This document shows positions 1,496 through 33,562 of a stretch of 33,562 nt of DNA, one piece after another. The position numbers and the translations under genes are program-made. The stretch lies in IMG/VR virus record IMGVR_UViG_3300025872_002673, positions 1-33,562 of that record; one strand, given 5' to 3'. The DNA comes from a virus. Numbering within the stretch: position 1 is the stretch's first letter; each line of letters starts with the position of its first letter. The notes under the pieces are model-generated. The model worked only from the letters and a program-made list of their open reading frames with translations. It was not told where the DNA came from and did not search any database.

Positions 1496-1583
1496 TGTTG
1501 CACCCCGGTGTGGCGTTCTCCCAAATATCCCAAAGCGCCAGTGGTATGCGACGATCGTAAGGACTCAATTCGTAGTGTGGCAT
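1485..1583 (-). CDS. 32-aa peptide coupled to the methyltransferase (or the 3' end of a longer overlapping gene)
   Basis: The frame starts with an ATG overlapping the methyltransferase stop (TAATG) and ends in the P2 upstream element, so it fills the space between the two. The product (MPHYELSPYDRR and following) is aromatic and proline-rich. The same frame is open back to 1925 or 1985, inside the methyltransferase gene, giving a 146- to 166-aa protein with a low-complexity Ser/Arg/Asp-rich front. I prefer the short coupled form because the long one would be overprinted on a conserved enzyme for more than 340 bp. Function unknown. Confidence 0.35.
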   Translation of the reverse strand: MPHYELSPYDRRIPLALWDIWENATPGCNNTL

Positions 1584-2149
1584 TACGACAGTCTCAAGCC
1601 AATGGGCAGATTCCGGGTATCGAATGTGAGCAGCTCTTGCATCCCAGAGAAAATGATCTGGTTGCTTGGGGAACTCCCATTTGGATCCACCCACACCAGT
1701 CTGGGATGTGGAGGAAGGTGTGGCATTGGACCCCACACTACCAGAGCGTGACCTCTTCCTCTTGTTACCATCTCGTTTGTCGCTGGGTTTCTGAACTGCA
1801 GGCGTCCAAGTATGAACCCCACCTTCGTCGCCTTCTTCCAAATCTCCCTCATCCACGGTCCATCCCCTGGGACTGCTGGAATCAGAGCTATTGCTGTTTG
1901 ATTTGTCTCTCCGTGTTCGCGGCATTTTGCTAACCACCTTGAGGTTTTGGTATATGGCGGATTGCAGAACACCGTTCCTTGCCACGGTAGTTTGAGTCCA
2001 TCATCACCGTTTCTAATATCATACTGGTTTGCAGCACCCACGGTCGAACTGGAATGTGCGCAAGGGTCCAGGTCTATGTGTGGCAACATGTCTGTTATCC
2101 AGGACGGTGTCATCCACTCGTCATTTCTCTGTTCAGTCTGTCTAGTCAT
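1583..2149 (-). CDS. Phage DNA N-6-adenine methyltransferase (Dam-like)
   Basis: The protein (188 aa with this start) shows the hallmarks of the phage Dam family: DEWMTP at residues 10-15, DLDPCA at 26-31 for S-adenosylmethionine binding, and the catalytic motif FCNPPY at 61-66 (D/N-PP-Y type). It should transfer a methyl group to adenine N6 in phage DNA, either as protection from host restriction or as a regulatory mark. Length fits the family. The start at 2149 overlaps the stop of the 47-codon gene by eight bases and puts DEWMTP near the amino terminus as usual. The frame stays open to 2260, but the extra part is overprinted on the upstream gene. Target sequence not predictable. Confidence 0.88.
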   Translation of the reverse strand: MTRQTEQRNDEWMTPSWITDMLPHIDLDPCAHSSSTVGAANQYDIRNGDDGLKLPWQGTVFCNPPYTKTSRWLAKCREHGETNQTAIALIPAVPGDGPWMREIWKKATKVGFILGRLQFRNPATNEMVTRGRGHALVVWGPMPHLPPHPRLVWVDPNGSSPSNQIIFSGMQELLTFDTRNLPIGLRLS

Positions 2150-2285
2150 TGTGGTTCCATTTGTGTTGTCGTTCATTCTCTTCGATGATGTGTTGTTGAT
2201 TGAGCCTGTGTAACAATCGTTCCTGTTTCTTACGCAAGTGTTCGAGTTCCTTTTGGGCATTGTATGGTTTCTTCTTCTTTGCCAT
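2142..2285 (-). CDS. 47-aa basic helical protein, unknown
   Basis: The frame has a good ribosome site (AGGAAGGA before the ATG) and starts with MAKKKKPYNAQKELEHL, followed by a charged Gln/Glu/Arg/His-rich helix; its stop overlaps the methyltransferase start. It is the first coding unit after the putative structured RNA, so the two may share a transcript. A short coiled coil or RNA/DNA-binding helix is likely. No family recognised. Confidence 0.6.
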   Translation of the reverse strand: MAKKKKPYNAQKELEHLRKKQERLLHRLNQQHIIEENERQHKWNHND

Positions 2286-23167: not shown

Positions 23168-23923
23168 TCATAGCCCTTGTTGTTTTAGATATGCAAGTGC
23201 AGCAGAACGAGCGTCTGCCATCGAGCGCGGCTTGGTCTGTGAGTTAGAAATTGAGGAGGAACCTGTCGACTGTGGTCTTGGAGGTGCTGATGGGGCACGT
23301 TTACCGTGCTTTGCCAGTGCCCTCTCTTCGATCTCAGCAATGAACTGCGAGTAGTCTCGTGCAACTGTGACAAGGTCAATGTCTGGATTCTGAATGCATG
23401 CTGACAACAAGACGGTTTCCGGTACATCCGGAAACTTTTTAGTTATCACTGAAATTTCATTCTCCAGTTCGACCTGCGCAGCTCTCATTTCGAAATTTGC
23501 TATTCTCTGCTCTAGAGCTGATACTTTGTCATCTTCCTGTGGTGCTTCATAAAGAGAAGCAATGTCAGAAAAGATGTCAGGTTCATGCTGATCCCTAGTC
23601 TGGATCTTCCTCGAATTTTCAACTTGGGCTTTCATTTCCGCCAACTGTCTTTCGAGCTCAGCAGTTTTGGCCTTTAGCTGCTTCTTGCTCTCATTGACTT
23701 CTTTGAAACGTTGGTATGGAACTGCGTGCCCTTGCTCATCCTTGTCGTCGGTGGACGAAGCCTCGACTCTCTTTACGTCCGTTTTGTCCTGGAACCTTGT
23801 CTCATCCGCGCGAGTTTCGACTTTTGGTTCATTTTGAACTGGCTGAGCTTTTTCTTCATCTATGTGCATGCTTTGGAACTTCTGTTCTAACGCAGCACGT
23901 GCATCATCTGTCAAAAACGACAT
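23168..23923 (-). CDS. Capsid scaffolding protein
   Basis: A 251-aa protein, strongly charged, with a long helical region (residues 70-110, KKQLKAKTAELERQLAEM) and a Ser/Pro/Gln-rich linker before a short basic carboxy end (MADARSAALAYLKQ), the usual coat-binding form. Position immediately before the coat gene supports the call. It would template procapsid assembly and then leave. AGGAAA serves as ribosome site. No protease-like motif seen, so it is probably not self-cleaved. Confidence 0.75.
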   Translation of the reverse strand: MSFLTDDARAALEQKFQSMHIDEEKAQPVQNEPKVETRADETRFQDKTDVKRVEASSTDDKDEQGHAVPYQRFKEVNESKKQLKAKTAELERQLAEMKAQVENSRKIQTRDQHEPDIFSDIASLYEAPQEDDKVSALEQRIANFEMRAAQVELENEISVITKKFPDVPETVLLSACIQNPDIDLVTVARDYSQFIAEIEERALAKHGKRAPSAPPRPQSTGSSSISNSQTKPRSMADARSAALAYLKQQGL

Positions 23924-28089: not shown

Positions 28090-28791
28090 TTATACAGAAA
28101 CTTCAAAAAATGACTCGTTCGTTTTTTCTCTGTACCATTTTTTGAAAGACTTTTTGATACCTACAAGTTCTTTGTGTTGTCTTTTTGTCACTTTCTGGTA
28201 GTCCAGGTCACTGAGTTCTCCCCAAAGCCACAGGTAAGTCTCTACACCCCAGTCTGCAATGGCCATTTGAATGATTTGCCTACTAGCGACCGTCTTTTCT
28301 GGATTGTCAGAACTGAAACCTTGAGTCGCCAGGGCACCCATTGCACCCCATGACATGTTTTCCAATCCATAAATGGCTTCATTGTCCAAAATCTCACCTA
28401 TCTGGTCTCTGATCTCTTTTTCTACAGCTCTTTTTCTGTCGTCCTTTCTGAGATTGTTGAGGTAGTTGAGTGCCGTGAATCGCATGAAAGTAGGATTCAT
28501 CACGGTCAATTTTCCTGCCTTAGCACCCACCAGGAGCCTTTCCACCACGAAATTCACAAATTCACCTGGTGTTCTATTGTCAGCATCCAGCTTCAGACAG
28601 AACCTGACCAAGCCACCACAAAGTGGGTAACTACCAGTGGCTCGAACCATTTTTTCCAGGCAGGTAGGATGGGCACAGAGTCCCGTCTGTCCTGGATGGT
28701 TGAAGTCAGGCAACATCAGATAACGAGAACCGTGTTCTGAGCACAGTCTGTGCTTGTCCCAACGATTGACTCTAAGCTTGGGCGCTTCCAT
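28090..28791 (-). CDS. 233-aa helical protein with amino-terminal Cys/His cluster
   Basis: The first 60 residues hold Cys17, His20, Cys39 and Cys44, which could bind zinc. The rest is helical, with two blocks resembling the spacing of sigma factor regions: FTALNYLNNLRKDDRKRAV near residue 105 and WGELSDLDYQKVTKRQHKEL near residue 190. The likeness to a sigma-like regulator is weak and is inference only. The start overlaps the end of the zinc-finger gene by 20 bp; AGGAG is ten bases upstream. Expected late-gene or host-takeover function. Confidence 0.5.
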   Translation of the reverse strand: MEAPKLRVNRWDKHRLCSEHGSRYLMLPDFNHPGQTGLCAHPTCLEKMVRATGSYPLCGGLVRFCLKLDADNRTPGEFVNFVVERLLVGAKAGKLTVMNPTFMRFTALNYLNNLRKDDRKRAVEKEIRDQIGEILDNEAIYGLENMSWGAMGALATQGFSSDNPEKTVASRQIIQMAIADWGVETYLWLWGELSDLDYQKVTKRQHKELVGIKKSFKKWYREKTNESFFEVSV

Positions 28792-29371
28792 GGTTTAGAC
28801 TCTCCTTCCATTCCTTGGCAATTTGTAAACGAATTTTCTGTGGTGTGTCCTCGTGTAATATCTTGTGAAAGTCACCGATGAGGGCTAATATGGTTCTGGC
28901 ACCGTCCTTGCAGGCATCTTCATCCTGAACATCTTTGAGCGCCTCCCAGAGCGAGACAGAAATTGCACACCAAGTAGGAATCACATCCTTGACCACCTTG
29001 TGTTTGATTGAGAGCGTGGCAACCTGGACAGGATCCAGGCACTCACGAATGAGTTCCAGGTGATCGCAGGAAATTTTGAGCGCTGCCTTGAAAGACTCTA
29101 ACAGGGTCAGTTTGCGGTACTCATCGTGGGCTGTGACCGCGAAGGTCTTGAACATTTCTGAGAGGGCATCCACACACATGGCATCCACAACCTCTTTAGG
29201 CGGTGTAGAATTGACCCTAAAGATCTGGACCATGGTGCCGTGTTGGTTCGTCTCAAAGTGCCCATCCAGGTGCTTCTTGAAACCACCTTCGGTCTTGTAA
29301 TTCTTCTTGCAGACCGGACACTCGTAAAGGGGTTTGAGTTCGTTTCCTTGTTCGTCAAATACTCTACTCAT
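28772..29371 (-). CDS. C2H2 zinc-finger protein, 199 aa
   Basis: Near the start there is a classical C2H2 finger: CPVCKKNYKTEGGFKKHLDGH (Cys-X2-Cys, 12 residues, His-X3-His), preceded by a short Glu/Leu-rich segment. The remaining 140 residues are helical without recognised motifs. A TAGGAGAG site overlaps the upstream glycosyltransferase's TAG stop, fixing the start at 29371. Single C2H2 fingers do occur in phage proteins; it may bind nucleic acid or a partner. Target unknown. Confidence 0.7.
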   Translation of the reverse strand: MSRVFDEQGNELKPLYECPVCKKNYKTEGGFKKHLDGHFETNQHGTMVQIFRVNSTPPKEVVDAMCVDALSEMFKTFAVTAHDEYRKLTLLESFKAALKISCDHLELIRECLDPVQVATLSIKHKVVKDVIPTWCAISVSLWEALKDVQDEDACKDGARTILALIGDFHKILHEDTPQKIRLQIAKEWKESLNHGSAQA

Positions 29372-29381
29372 TGTTTCTCTC

Positions 29382-30272
29382 CTAAATTGGTGGAAGTTTA
29401 CCTGCAAAATACGCATTTCGTAAGTTTGCAATGTTTTTCCAATTTGGCATGGTGTCTTGTAGGCCTTTTCTTTCGCCCACCTTGATTGTCTTTACTCTGT
29501 ACAGGAGTTTTTCGGCAAATTTAGCTTGTTCTTCGAAAGGAAGGGCAGATACCATTTCTTCCTTCTTTTCATCAAGCACTTTCATCCAGTTTTTGTTGGC
29601 GTTGATGACATTCTCCCAGTTAGAATACCAGTCTGCAAGACCTCCTTTCATTGAGGGTAAGGCCACAGGTGCATGATCTACTGCGAGATCAAAGTATTTT
29701 CCACAAAGTGCTCCGCTAAGCATCAGCATTGTGACAAAGTACAAATCTTCTCTTCCTGGAGCATCATCATAATTCACGCTTGTTGGGATCTTAGTGCCAT
29801 CAAGCCAAATACTGCCCGTATCAGCTTTTCTTTTCATCAAGCCTGTATCGCGGCTAGCATGGGCAAAAACGCTAAACACAAAACTTCCATACGCAAGTCC
29901 CTCCTTTAGAAAAAGAGACTCAGATTTATTGAGCGCATCATTTAGTGAAATTGCCGACTTCTTTTTGGCCCACTTTCCAGGTTCAGTTGGATCACTAACT
30001 TCAAGAAAACACTTGATGTCATCATCCATCATGAAAATTTTGATGCCTCGATTTCTACATTCATCAAGCATTTTTTGACGAACATATGTTACACCTTGGT
30101 CATTTTTATCAAGCAGCTTATAGGTGACACAAGGATGACTATTCACTTGCCTGTATGATAACTCATCTTGAGGTTCGATCCAGATCGTGTGAGGTATTCC
30201 CTCCCTACAAAGGGCATTAGAAAATGCAGCATTAGGTCGACCTTTAGACGGTATCCAAATTTCACTTAGCAT
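29382..30272 (-). CDS. GT-A glycosyltransferase, TET-associated (TAGT)-like
   Basis: About 296 aa with this start. The front (EIWIPSKGRPN, WIEPQDELSY) matches the pattern of TET-associated DNA glycosyltransferases, followed by a metal-binding FMMDDDIKCF (DxD type) near residue 83 and a GREDLYF block. The family adds sugars to modified bases in phage DNA. No TET/JBP oxygenase or hydroxymethylase is visible nearby, so the acceptor is unknown and could be a protein. The gene is clearly AT-richer than flanks (33% GC in 30001-30120), a sign of transfer. The frame is open to GTG 30305, but AGGAG lies four bases before ATG 30272. Confidence 0.6.
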   Translation of the reverse strand: MLSEIWIPSKGRPNAAFSNALCREGIPHTIWIEPQDELSYRQVNSHPCVTYKLLDKNDQGVTYVRQKMLDECRNRGIKIFMMDDDIKCFLEVSDPTEPGKWAKKKSAISLNDALNKSESLFLKEGLAYGSFVFSVFAHASRDTGLMKRKADTGSIWLDGTKIPTSVNYDDAPGREDLYFVTMLMLSGALCGKYFDLAVDHAPVALPSMKGGLADWYSNWENVINANKNWMKVLDEKKEEMVSALPFEEQAKFAEKLLYRVKTIKVGERKGLQDTMPNWKNIANLRNAYFAGKLPPI

Positions 30273-30301: not shown

Positions 30302-30682
30302 TCACTTCTTTCTCCTTCCAATGGCCTCAATTTGGGCTCTCTCGGTGTTCTCTGTGACTTCAGATGACACTTCTTTCTCATTACCAATGGTATCCTTATC
30401 CTCGGAAACGGGTGTCTCCTGGGACAACGTCGTAACACTGTTGACCTTGCCTGCACGTTTTTGGGCACGACTGATGTACTCACCCTGAGAGTCGGTGCGG
30501 ACGATGAGAAGCTCTCTGTCCAGCAGGTAACCTCTGGTCGCCCAGGCAGTCCTGATGGCATAGAGAGTGTTCAGTTGCCTGACTGAGGCGTTGGGGTCCG
30601 CCATCAGTTTGCACAGTTCTTGCAGGTGCTCTTCGTTGCGGACCGCGTGGCCAGCACCCATGCCGCTTCTGACTCTACCCAT
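30302..30682 (-). CDS. 126-aa hypothetical protein
   Basis: A basic Arg/His-containing amino part (GRVRSGMGAGHAVRNEEHL), a helical middle with LADPNASVRQLNTLYAIRTAW-like character, then a charged acidic end with many Glu and Lys residues. GGAGG precedes the ATG, overlapping the end of the 60-codon gene by eight bases. No family recognised; a small DNA-associated protein is plausible by charge. Confidence 0.55.
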   Translation of the reverse strand: MGRVRSGMGAGHAVRNEEHLQELCKLMADPNASVRQLNTLYAIRTAWATRGYLLDRELLIVRTDSQGEYISRAQKRAGKVNSVTTLSQETPVSEDKDTIGNEKEVSSEVTENTERAQIEAIGRRKK

Positions 30683-30857
30683 TATTGTCCTCCTTTAGAG
30701 ACATTTCAAACTCTTCCACTGCTTCCAAGAAACCTTGGCGAATGTTTTCAATACCAATGATGAAGTCGTCCAGCTTTGAGTCAATCTCAATCAACTTCAC
30801 CTTGATGTTCTGTAGTTCATTCCACACTTCAATGTTTGTAGGAATTGCATCATTCAT
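30675..30857 (-). CDS. 60-aa helical coiled-coil protein
   Basis: A strongly helical, heptad-like sequence (VWNELQNIKVKLIEIDSKLD). The ATG overlaps the GIY-YIG stop (ATGA), and AGAGGTG lies upstream. Its small size and operon position suggest a partner or antagonist of a neighbour. No family recognised. Confidence 0.55.
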   Translation of the reverse strand: MNDAIPTNIEVWNELQNIKVKLIEIDSKLDDFIIGIENIRQGFLEAVEEFEMSLKEDNNG

Positions 30858-31381
30858 TTGTCACCTCTTGTTAGGAAGGCGTCGGAGACGCCGGTTGCGG
30901 AGACCCCTGTCTCCTTGGCTTCGTCCTCGCTTATGAAACCAATGACTGCACGGAAACCGTCGCTAACTGCGTTGCTTAGAGCCTTGCGGTGTGCAGGTGT
31001 CTGGCGGTATTGGCCAGGACCCGGTTGACGCCCTCTGCTGGTGGGACGCTTGTTGTAGCACTCCTGCTTACCGTTCTCTCTCTCCCACCACAACTGTTCC
31101 AAGGCCAGGAGACCGTCGTCATCCACCAGGCCCCAGACTTGTTCCACCACCTGAAAGTCGAAGGCAGTGGGACCCAGGAGATCCCAGTCTGCCTGGAGTT
31201 CCTTGTTGCCCTTCTTGCGACCGAAGGCACTGATGTGGAGACGCCAACGACGGCCGACATCCACTGCGGACCCGACATAACAACGACCAGTCTGCCTGTT
31301 CCTGATGACATAGATTCCACTGATACCTGACTGCTTGACCAACCACTCATTGCGGGCAAATCTTGCTGTTTGCTTCTTCAT
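30854..31381 (-). CDS. GIY-YIG endonuclease
   Basis: The 175-aa protein has GIY at 22-24 and YVG at 35-37, Arg44/Arg45, catalytic Glu95 (LLALEQLWWE) and Asn110 (CYNKRP), all in family order. The carboxy part holds an Arg/Pro-rich linker then an RKALSNAVSDGF segment similar to the NUMOD-type DNA-binding repeats of homing endonucleases. It may cut a relative's DNA to spread itself or degrade host DNA. The gene is GC-rich (60% in 31021-31080), in contrast to the AT-rich glycosyltransferase gene downstream. AGGAG is well placed. Confidence 0.85.
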   Translation of the reverse strand: MKKQTARFARNEWLVKQSGISGIYVIRNRQTGRCYVGSAVDVGRRWRLHISAFGRKKGNKELQADWDLLGPTAFDFQVVEQVWGLVDDDGLLALEQLWWERENGKQECYNKRPTSRGRQPGPGQYRQTPAHRKALSNAVSDGFRAVIGFISEDEAKETGVSATGVSDAFLTRGDK

Positions 31382-31653
31382 TCTTTCTCCTCCCAGGAGG
31401 CCTCGGTGATTCCCACCTTCGGCCGACTTGGCCTTCCAGGCGGGCTTTTGAACTGCCTCTTAGTGTAAATATGCGGCTCACTGGGAATTTGGCACAAGGC
31501 GTCGCAAATAATTTGATGAAAATAGGGGTCGTCCCAGTGACGAGTCTCGCCTGTCAAGGCCTGTGAGAGTTTGCACATGGCAGACTTCCAGGTCCAGTAG
31601 ATGGTCATTTTAGGAAGACCACTTATTTCACTACACTCACGAAAGCTACGCAT
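31378..31653 (-). CDS. 91-aa hypothetical, possible small DNA-binding protein
   Basis: The front resembles a short helix-turn-helix (ECSEISGLPKMTIYWTWK), and the end carries a PGRPSRPK stretch like an AT-hook. Both are suggestive, not diagnostic. AAGGA lies upstream of the ATG, and its TGA overlaps the GIY-YIG ATG. It would be a sensible regulator of the endonuclease operon. Confidence 0.5.
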   Translation of the reverse strand: MRSFRECSEISGLPKMTIYWTWKSAMCKLSQALTGETRHWDDPYFHQIICDALCQIPSEPHIYTKRQFKSPPGRPSRPKVGITEASWEEKE

Positions 31654-32234: not shown

Positions 32235-32609
32235 CTAATAACTGTGGGGGAGATGCACATCGTCCGGATCGATGCCAGCCTCTACCAGGCGTTCCCTCTC
32301 TTCTGCGTCGGGCGTTTTGGATTCGCCCAAGGACTGCCACACCACCAGGGTGCCGTCATCCAGGACTACCGCTTCCTTGATGGAAATCATGGAACCTGTG
32401 CCAAATTGAGGAATGAATTCATACAACACTGCACTTGTTGAGTAGGTTTCGTGCCACCTACAGACGGCATCCATGAAGGCCTCACGTGCCACATTGATGT
32501 CTGTGTAGAGATTTGAGTAGACTTCAGTGCTTCCGGAACCACCATCCTGTCCGCAAGTCACAATGTAATACCTTTCCATTTGTATCCACGGTTTCATCGG
32601 GGAGTCCAT
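32235..32609 (-). CDS. 124-aa hypothetical protein, first gene after promoter P1
   Basis: Starts with a GGAG five bases before the ATG and lies about 20 bp downstream of the P1 -10 box. Residues 11-30 form MERYYIVTCGQDGGSGS, then a mixed alpha/beta body with DGTLVVWQS. No known domain. It likely belongs to an early transcript; function unknown. Confidence 0.65.
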   Translation of the reverse strand: MDSPMKPWIQMERYYIVTCGQDGGSGSTEVYSNLYTDINVAREAFMDAVCRWHETYSTSAVLYEFIPQFGTGSMISIKEAVVLDDGTLVVWQSLGESKTPDAEERERLVEAGIDPDDVHLPHSY

Positions 32610-32631: not shown

Positions 32632-32697
32632 ATTATACCACAGTTTTGGAGGCATTACACTTTTTTTGTTCAAAATTTACAATGTTTTACAATGTTT
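32632..32697 (-). promoter_or_regulatory. Promoter P1 with AT-rich upstream element
   Basis: Minus-strand TATAAT (32632-32637) is preceded by TGG, forming an extended -10, and by GTGTAA (32655-32660) after 17 bp. Upstream, TTTTGAACAAAAAAA and two ACATTGTAAA copies repeat the P2 element at 1459-1495. It would drive the 124-codon gene and probably the whole right-hand operon. Confidence 0.65.
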
Positions 32698-32800
32698 GTC
32701 TATGAAAGAATTGTATACACGGGTGGAACTTAAATGAAGGCGGGGGCAGGGCCCACTTCCCGCATAACACGTCCTGTGATACCGGCACCCCTGTGTCCAT
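32687..32800 (-). CDS. Possible 37-aa peptide, right copy
   Basis: Same frame as 25-138, with one Glu/Gly difference. Weak support: no ribosome site, and one non-silent change in 37 codons. Its stop lies in the P1 upstream element. Confidence 0.25.
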   Translation of the reverse strand: MDTGVPVSQDVLCGKWALPPPSFKFHPCIQFFHRQTL

Positions 32801-32802
32801 AC

Positions 32803-32883
32803 TTACCAATTCATAGCAATTTGAATGGCCCCCCACAGAAGACTGAGCCAGAATGCCCAGAATGTCATTTCGTAAGCAGTCAT
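32803..32883 (-). CDS. 26-aa membrane peptide (right copy)
   Basis: Identical protein to the copy at 141-221 despite two base differences, both silent. The ATG follows the HNH stop codon directly, so it is coupled to the endonuclease here. Confidence 0.55.
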   Translation of the reverse strand: MTAYEMTFWAFWLSLLWGAIQIAMNW

Positions 32884-33276
32884 TTACAACCGTCCTGGTG
32901 GCAAGGGACTGGGTCTGGGATGTGGGTCATTATATTTGTAGAATGTTGGACTTATGCGTTTGAGTCTTTGTTTCATTGCATTCTCCTTTCTTTTTGAAAT
33001 GGCCTGAGCATATCGTTCTGGATAGTTTCTAAGGTCATTGGTGTTTTCCTTCACGGTTCCCCATCGTAGGTGGGCCCCATTGACACACCCACCATGGTTT
33101 GAATCGTGTTCGCAAATATGCATTGCCACACATTTAGGATGAGGAGGAGGTCCTGCATGCTCCTCTAATGCTTTTCTACTTCTACTTCCTCTAGGTTTGA
33201 GAGGTAACAGACACTCCCCTACCTGAGTTACCTTCCAACGAGATAAGAGTTGTTCCATTGACAATTTGGGTCTCAC
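32884..33276 (-). CDS. HNH endonuclease
   Basis: 130 aa, starting at GTG with AGGAGG five bases upstream. The zinc-type HNH core is clear: H53, C55, H57, then GGCVNGAHLRWGTVKENTNDL at 62-82 (Cys64, His69, GT..EN). Such proteins cut DNA as homing enzymes or help packaging. Its GTG overlaps the TGA of the 28-codon gene (GTGA). Its last 14 residues or so lie in the repeat arm and are also present in the left copy, so the gene seems inserted in or swapped for a short cassette. The left copy lacks the HNH core. Confidence 0.8.
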   Translation of the reverse strand: MRPKLSMEQLLSRWKVTQVGECLLPLKPRGSRSRKALEEHAGPPPHPKCVAMHICEHDSNHGGCVNGAHLRWGTVKENTNDLRNYPERYAQAISKRKENAMKQRLKRISPTFYKYNDPHPRPSPLPPGRL

Positions 33277-33359
33277 TTGCCCTCCTGTATTTGAGTCAAT
33301 TTTTTCTTTAGGACCTTGCGCTCTTGTTCGGTCAACTGCTTCCCCTTGCTGTCCTTCAT
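33273..33359 (-). CDS. 28-aa basic peptide upstream of the HNH gene
   Basis: A perfect GAGGAGG site precedes the ATG, and the stop overlaps the HNH start. The Lys/Glu/Gln-rich helix (SKGKQLTEQERKVLKKKL) resembles part of the 73-aa protein in the left copy. It may be a shortened relative of that protein, cut by the endonuclease cassette. Confidence 0.5.
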   Translation of the reverse strand: MKDSKGKQLTEQERKVLKKKLTQIQEGK

Positions 33360-33415
33360 CGATACCTCCTCGGATTACGACGTTGATTTGTGTGACACTC
33401 TTTTGCCTTGTCCAT
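33356..33415 (-). CDS. 19-aa leader peptide, unknown (right copy)
   Basis: Counterpart of 496-555. The frame and the ATGA overlap with the next gene are kept even though that next gene is different. This favours translation. Confidence 0.4.
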   Translation of the reverse strand: MDKAKECHTNQRRNPRRYR

Positions 33416-33562
33416 AATAATCCTTATCCAAGAGTTTCCGTGTCTCTGAGAGTCACTGTGTGATTCAGAGATTCAGGTAACCATAAGCCACCAGTTTTGC
33501 GACAGTCTGTTTGAATTCTGCTTTGTTGCGCATCCAGTCGTATCCGAACTGTGGCATGTTTC
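33361..33562. repeat. Right copy of end repeat, arm 2
   Basis: Counterpart of 501-702 and ends only because the window ends. The last hundred bases show no differences. Confidence 0.9.
33465..33562 (-). CDS. Partial copy of the 99-aa hypothetical protein
   Basis: Identical to the 3' end of the gene at 605-904; its 5' part lies outside the window. It supports a circular or terminally redundant layout in which the right end continues into the left-end genes. Confidence 0.7.
   Translation of the reverse strand, partial: NMPQFGYDWMRNKAEFKQTVAKLVAYGYLNL

Follow-up and report, generated by a model that had tools for sequence, protein, structure and literature searches.

An orphan TAGT-family glycosyltransferase with a retained donor half and a diverged acceptor half in a viral contig

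The DNA analysed here, called the window throughout, is the whole of IMG/VR virus record IMGVR_UViG_3300025872_002673 (33,562 nucleotides), which comes from a tailed phage with a small genome. At positions 29382-30272 it carries a real gene of the TET-associated glycosyltransferase (TAGT) family. The encoded protein keeps the sugar-nucleotide half of TAGTs that accompany phage TET oxidases, its acceptor half has diverged, and the window has no match to TET or to PF00303. The reading that we favour, tentatively and at slightly less than an even chance, is that the enzyme comes from the TET lineage, that its oxidase partner has gone and its acceptor half has been rebuilt, and that the sugar goes to an acceptor other than the 5-hydroxymethylcytosine made by a phage TET. 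That such a TAGT was repurposed for a non-DNA acceptor (virion protein or host surface) or for a host-made base is possible, and we advance this with more doubt.

Profile searches identify the family. Pfam PF20691 matches the protein with 34.7 bits (cut-off 27.5; E 2.2e-8), the match spanning positions 2-118 of the 205 in the profile, i.e., its N-terminal half only, and PHROGs place residues 5-220 in phrog_842, ‘beta-glucosyl-HMC-alpha-glucosyltransferase’ (E 1.6e-13). Both agree with the AF2 model, as they do with the sequence-only reading, which had called the gene TAGT-like. The ORF encodes 296 aa, with its stop side at 29382 and an ATG at 30272 preceded by AGGAG a few bases upstream; a longer form starting with GTG at 30305 is possible. 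Its neighbours run in the same direction and are tightly packed. No close relative of the protein was found in viral_contigs, and a TAGT profile run against PDB sequences gave no match. The gene and its motifs are:

29382-30272, minus strand: orphan TAGT-family GT-A glycosyltransferase (PF20691, phrog_842, AF2 model, BFVD matches, RBS)
30237-30248, minus strand: SKGR motif, residues 9-12, in the donor half; K10 and R12 invariant in alignments A1 and A2
30018-30026, minus strand: DDD motif, residues 83-85; invariant in A2
29745-29750, minus strand: ED motif, residues 175-176; D176 invariant in A2
29640-29645, minus strand: GG motif, residues 210-211; invariant in A1 and A2
29382-29972, minus strand: putative acceptor half, residues ~100-296; 13 of 35 conserved columns kept

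The AF2 model, built from alignment A2 (20 rows), has a pLDDT of 87.1 and a pTM of 0.85 and predicts a GT-A fold like that of other TAGTs. In the BFVD viral library the first two structural matches carry the name TAGT (E about 1e-13, TM about 0.7), the top one with E 1.0e-13 and TM 0.68/0.72. Structural matches in the PDB include the GT-A enzymes TarP, LARGE1 and GalNAc-T2, and RmlT and TarP align to the model with a Z of about 14 and an rmsd of about 4 over about 225 residues. K10, R12, P34, Y40, G60, R65, D83-D85, D176, G210 and G211 are invariant in A2, window included, so that all catalytic-type residues (K10, R12, G60, R65, DDD, D176 and GG) are present. Judged by sequence, DDD would be the metal/nucleotide-sugar motif, and D176 is presumably the catalytic base, by analogy with GT2 enzymes. 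Motifs and model together suggest a functional protein that is probably active. The name acceptor half, given to residues ~100-296, follows GT-A enzymes in general; a Pfam search with this half alone gave no match. Alignment A1 was too diverse to serve as a scanning profile, and a motif-pattern scan returned three stretches: one TET-linked TAGT present on two contigs, plus a false match.

To compare the two halves, we aligned 14 TET-linked TAGTs, took the columns in which at least 80% of them agree, and set the split point 15 residues after DDD. This reference derives from TET-linked seeds and leaves out L036, L043, L045 and L047, which nearly duplicate rows already included, as well as L049, which is broken. 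The window TAGT keeps 19/20 donor columns versus 13/35 acceptor columns (Fisher p 1.7e-5, ranging from 1.3e-5 to 1.6e-3 across three thresholds with each of four aligner settings). With alignments that differed slightly, the counts were 18/19 versus 9/26 plus 5/10 and, in another case, 19/20 versus 11/34. Among the 14 reference members the minimum acceptor score is 0.57-0.61; the TET-linked L050 and L051 reach only 0.60-0.67, and the held-out TET-linked TAGT L060, scored singly, keeps 29/34. TET-linked TAGTs have in common with the window protein the GT-A fold, the SKGR-EPQ-DDD donor half (26-40 identical residues in 88-95 aligned columns), D176 and GG. In contrast, the acceptor half of the window TAGT has diverged from their signature LEYQQ(Y/F)AWS ... 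KEDRDF ... NGSNxGGL, with LEYQQYAWS and NGSN lost, and its C-terminal part is longer, with extra helices. It also keeps only 9 of the 84 acceptor-half columns conserved in T-even-type TAGTs. Because so few columns of either kind are kept, this half is of neither the TET-linked nor the T-even type.

Low acceptor scores are found in other records that lack a TET match: 13 of their 14 TAGTs, window included, score 0.23-0.37. These 13 are the window protein, that of Lactobacillus phage Ld17, four from record G034, five from records with PF00303 and two from Vibrio phages; the window and G034 are alike in that the donor half is TET-like (0.70-0.95) and the acceptor half changed. The exception is L037, on the 5.5-kb fragment G019, whose acceptor half is of TET type (30/34), and no TET match was found in its flanks of 2.3 kb per side. 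It is a partial counter-example, as a TET-type acceptor half need not have an adjoining TET; either the TET lies farther off, as in record G023, or the signature is independent of TET. By sequence, the conserved-column test speaks for an altered acceptor rather than for the usual TET product. To that extent only, it narrows the three substrates proposed from the sequence alone (a host-made base, a protein, or a base made by an unrecognised enzyme).

If repurposing is true, the acceptor-half signature would help to predict TET-partnered TAGTs from sequence. The split between donor and acceptor halves suggests a rule that would sort TET-dependent from TET-independent TAGTs; so far, L060 counts as its single held-out success, and L037 as a single doubtful case.

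In a 27-row tree with a 100/100 split, the window TAGT groups with the TET-linked rows, on the side of 18 rows that also contains L037 and two TET-less proteins of G034. By tree and donor half, TET-linked TAGTs are the clade nearest to it. Its end branch measures 2.8, ten times the median of 0.28, and because this branch is so long the exact placement is unsure.

Partner enzymes were sought in the window and in other TAGT records. Six-frame profile searches of the window with Tet_JBP (PF12851) and with PF00303 (thymidylate-synthase type, a profile that cannot tell hydroxymethylases and thymidylate synthases apart) found nothing at E 0.01, in line with the earlier statement that no base oxidase or hydroxymethylase is recognisable. 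The C5-methyltransferase PF00145, a possible source of 5mC, was also absent from the window; it does not discriminate, since a search of 12 records, the window among them, found it in only one. A Pfam and/or PHROGs scan covered the 33 ORFs taken as genes plus the overlapping ORF 278-499. Besides the TAGT, the sole base-modifying enzyme recognised was of Dam type, and Dam-type enzymes add a methyl group and no hydroxyl. The features in question are:

1583-2260, minus strand: Dam-type DNA N6-adenine methyltransferase (PF05869, 51.9 bits; phrog_111)
30302-30682, minus strand, same direction as the TAGT gene: upstream ORF, 126 aa
28772-29431, minus strand, same direction: downstream ORF with a likely start at ATG 29371; the longer form overlaps the TAGT gene
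30854-31381, minus strand: GIY-YIG homing-type endonuclease, 0.6 kb from the TAGT gene; at 0.564, its GC is the maximum among 32 ORFs

For the upstream ORF, PHROGs gave nothing and Pfam a single match that falls far short of the cut-off. The ORF after the TAGT gene contains a C2H2 zinc-finger-like stretch, CPVCKKNYKTEGGFKKHLDGH, just under the Pfam cut-offs.

For the census, 30 records, IMG/VR ones being mostly fragments, were gathered by TAGT similarity. A TAGT exceeded the cut-off in 29; G016, a 4.7-kb fragment whose TAGT piece had no match, was left out. TET is present in 19/29 (18 over the family cut-off; the match in G024 is below it and clipped by the contig end), a share that describes the TET-linked clade rather than all TAGTs, since the set was mostly gathered with TET-linked queries. 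Five further records, all large phages, have PF00303 over cut-off, which brings those with TET or PF00303 to 24/29. This bears out the statement that TAGTs normally go with TET/JBP or a hydroxymethylase, for a set partly from TET-linked seeds and with PF00303 ambiguous. Neither was found in the remaining 5/29, i.e., the window, Vibrio phages 1.076.O and 1.124.O (both ‘partial genome’ records), the 5.5-kb fragment G019, and G034. P12024L, counted as TET-bearing, also has a sub-cut-off PF00303 match, and the TAGT of G031 carries two in-frame stops. Two records joined the set at a later stage: one, a Siphonobacter MAG locus, has TET adjoining TAGT; the other, the complete 32,975-base genome of Lactobacillus phage Ld17, has a TAGT and no TET or PF00303 match. 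Of 30 records, two have both Dam (PF05869) and TAGT, namely the window and that of Vibrio phage 1.124.O, and neither shows a TET or PF00303 match; this co-occurrence is suggestive, and the records are too few to use.

According to the reading we favour, the ancestor would be a TAGT encoded beside a phage TET/JBP oxidase, or the window TAGT would at least be closest to such TAGTs. The sugar-nucleotide half (SKGR, EPQ, DDD), together with D176 and GG, would have been retained, the rest of the acceptor half rebuilt and the TET partner lost, and the enzyme would move a sugar from a nucleotide-sugar donor to a changed acceptor. We consider a virion protein or a host-surface glycan somewhat more likely as acceptor than a phage DNA base. 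Non-DNA acceptors are plausible because capsid or tail protein glycans are reported for mycobacteriophages in two papers (PMC11256854, PMC12619734), and because the nearest solved folds include cell-wall glycosyltransferases, a common GT-A fold being no proof of function. The virion glycosyltransferases of Che8-type mycobacteriophages are set beside the window TAGT by possible function, as a precedent for a protein acceptor only.

The enzyme may be a DNA glycosyltransferase after all, working on a base, hydroxylated or modified in another way, that comes from the host, from a prophage or from a co-infecting phage; we regard this alternative as unlikely. Consistent with it, the catalytic core is kept and a TET or PF00303 gene accompanies most TAGTs of the census. 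The T6 TAGT, moreover, adds a second glucose on DNA, i.e., acts on DNA that already bears sugar, according to PMC13216743 and PMC13390438. Against it, the window acceptor half lacks the TET-linked signature and retains few T-even-type columns. A diverged acceptor half does not itself exclude a DNA acceptor, because T-even-type TAGTs, to which the T6 enzyme with its product on DNA belongs, also score low on the TET-linked acceptor columns.

The window TAGT was compared with known systems. In Nonlabens phage P12024L, TAGT gp27 adjoins the TET/JBP gene gp26, whereas the window TAGT has no TET. With the T6-type beta-glucosyl-HMC-alpha-glucosyltransferase, the window TAGT has Pfam family, PHROG and core motifs in common; all five large T-even-type phages examined have a PF00303 gene and the window does not. 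T-even-type TAGT phages mostly carry an alpha- or beta-GT too (PMC13216743). Similar in situation are the solitary TAGTs of Lactobacillus phage Ld17 (gp1, KJ564037) and Vibrio phages 1.076.O and 1.124.O, likewise without TET or PF00303. They are not close in sequence to the window protein: that of Ld17 lacks a large part of the donor-half signature (8/20), and those of the Vibrio phages are of T-even type. No literature on Ld17 glycosylation was found. That an orphan TAGT is a rarity is not supported, since PMC13216743 reports solitary TAGTs as common and the complete 33-kb Ld17 has one. The same paper counts 288 of 753 phage genomes with a TAGT and no alpha- or beta-GT, a figure that concerns T4-type glucosyltransferases and not TET, and treats solitary TAGTs as potentially novel transferases. 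Because solitary TAGTs are already in print, we count the window TAGT with a known kind, of which it is a new and strongly diverged member. An open-access search, not specifically aimed at the point and covering its sources in part, found no literature linking acceptor-half conservation to TET. The window offers a clean case for the target of an orphan TAGT, with a small genome and no other DNA glucosyltransferase recognised among its 33 main ORFs.

A second alternative is that the contig is incomplete and an oxidase or hydroxymethylase lies in the missing part. Besides the Dam-type enzyme, the window encodes a terminase, portal and capsid proteins, an endolysin, and endonucleases of the GIY-YIG and HNH types. 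The scan of the 33 ORFs brought up no recognisable gene for a DNA polymerase, primase or helicase, and no Rfam family or tRNA was found in the window. Its ends form an imperfect repeat:

1-702: left copy, with 98% identity to the right end over 1-267 and 496-702
32663-33562: right copy; the unmatched middle holds most of the HNH-endonuclease ORF 32884-33276

The pairs matching at 98% are 1-267 with 32663-32929 and 496-702 with 33356-33562, and the middles are dissimilar (228 bases on the left versus 426 on the right); the left repeat includes a 73-aa ORF. The contig likely follows a circular genome of about 32.7 kb all the way round and was pieced together from two strain variants, and the repeats look like variants with and without the homing endonuclease, merged in one assembly. 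Closure is unproven, because a 36-base probe common to both repeats had 0 matches in viral_contigs and thus found no contig with the repeat stretch; two joined ORFs used as a query for the same species found no relative. As a complete circle of ~32.7 kb, this would be a phage without a recognised polymerase, primase or helicase. A promoter-like repeat with TTTGTTCAAAATTTACAATNTTTTACAATGT was seen by eye at 1-35, at the contig start, and at 1460-1493 and 32660-32695.

Several observations would fit a missing segment. The distant relatives G008 and G009 (~39 kb) carry DnaB helicase and YqaJ recombinase genes, neither of which was found in the window, and the lysis-to-terminase stretch is ~16.5 kb in G008 versus ~9.8 kb in the window if circular. 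The end repeats differ mid-way, so that a missing segment could lie between them, and in G023 the TET sits 4.3 kb from the TAGT. However, the near-identical ends point to a closed circle in two strain variants, and the acceptor half does not belong to the TET-linked type. In 18 of the 19 TET-bearing records, G023 being the exception, TET and TAGT are less than 1 kb apart, yet more than 3 kb was assembled on each side of the window TAGT and is TET-free. We therefore consider an incomplete contig quite improbable. In G008, a C5-cytosine methyltransferase gene (PF00145, 102.7 bits; L055 18932-19750) directly follows the DnaB gene.

Very improbable, in our judgement, is an unrecognised oxidase or other base-modifying enzyme among the ORFs of the window that supplies the acceptor. 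No family over cut-off was assigned to the non-structural ORFs 605-904, 904-1383, 28090-28791, 30302-30682, 30675-30857, 31378-31653 and 32235-32609, which leaves room for such an enzyme, but most are short (60-159 aa; 28090-28791 encodes 233 aa), not even a weak oxygenase or synthase match was seen among them, and the Dam-type product would be a methyl group without hydroxyl. Decay to an inactive remnant, which would fit the very long branch and the missing close relatives, is hardly credible given the intact frame, the RBS, the A2 invariant columns and the confident model.

The TAGT gene is atypical in composition. GC is 33.3% at 30001-30120 and 60.0% at 31021-31080, so the AT-rich island described earlier (33% against 60%) was measured as such. 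A GC below that of 30001-30120 is seen in 0.57% of all 120-base stretches, and 4 of 279 non-overlapping ones are at or below it. The 891-base stretch of minimum GC, 29295-30185 (0.409), overlaps the TAGT gene (0.411). At shorter scales the minima fall elsewhere (120 bases at 1376, 300 bases at 2615), and the 60-aa ORF 30675-30857 has a GC of 0.388, below that of the TAGT gene. None of 32 ORFs is more atypical in its synonymous codons than the TAGT gene (z -4.7); next come 1583-2260 (z -4.1), 31378-31653 (z -3.8) and 23168-23923 (z -3.3). Relatives of the major capsid protein gave 21 loci, and 14 of their records were searched for a TAGT; none had one (0/14), two records of ~39 kb being the only ones informative by size. 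Codon usage and this absence both speak for the recent acquisition that had been proposed. Because the highest-GC gene, encoding the GIY-YIG enzyme, lies only 0.6 kb upstream of the atypical TAGT gene, the region may be one of mixed imports.

Other TAGT records showed further arrangements. In the 25.7-kb record G034, which has no TET or PF00303 match, four TAGT genes stand in a row (L059 5371-9276) beside an RGP-family gene (PF03214) and, by eye, ParB-like genes; this array is possibly a multi-sugar cluster. TAGT genes were also seen inside head modules, in two records without a TET match: L037 (2309-3052) has protease-like (head protease) and capsid-like flanks by eye, and L027 (6534-7703) lies, by annotation, between portal and head-morphogenesis genes.
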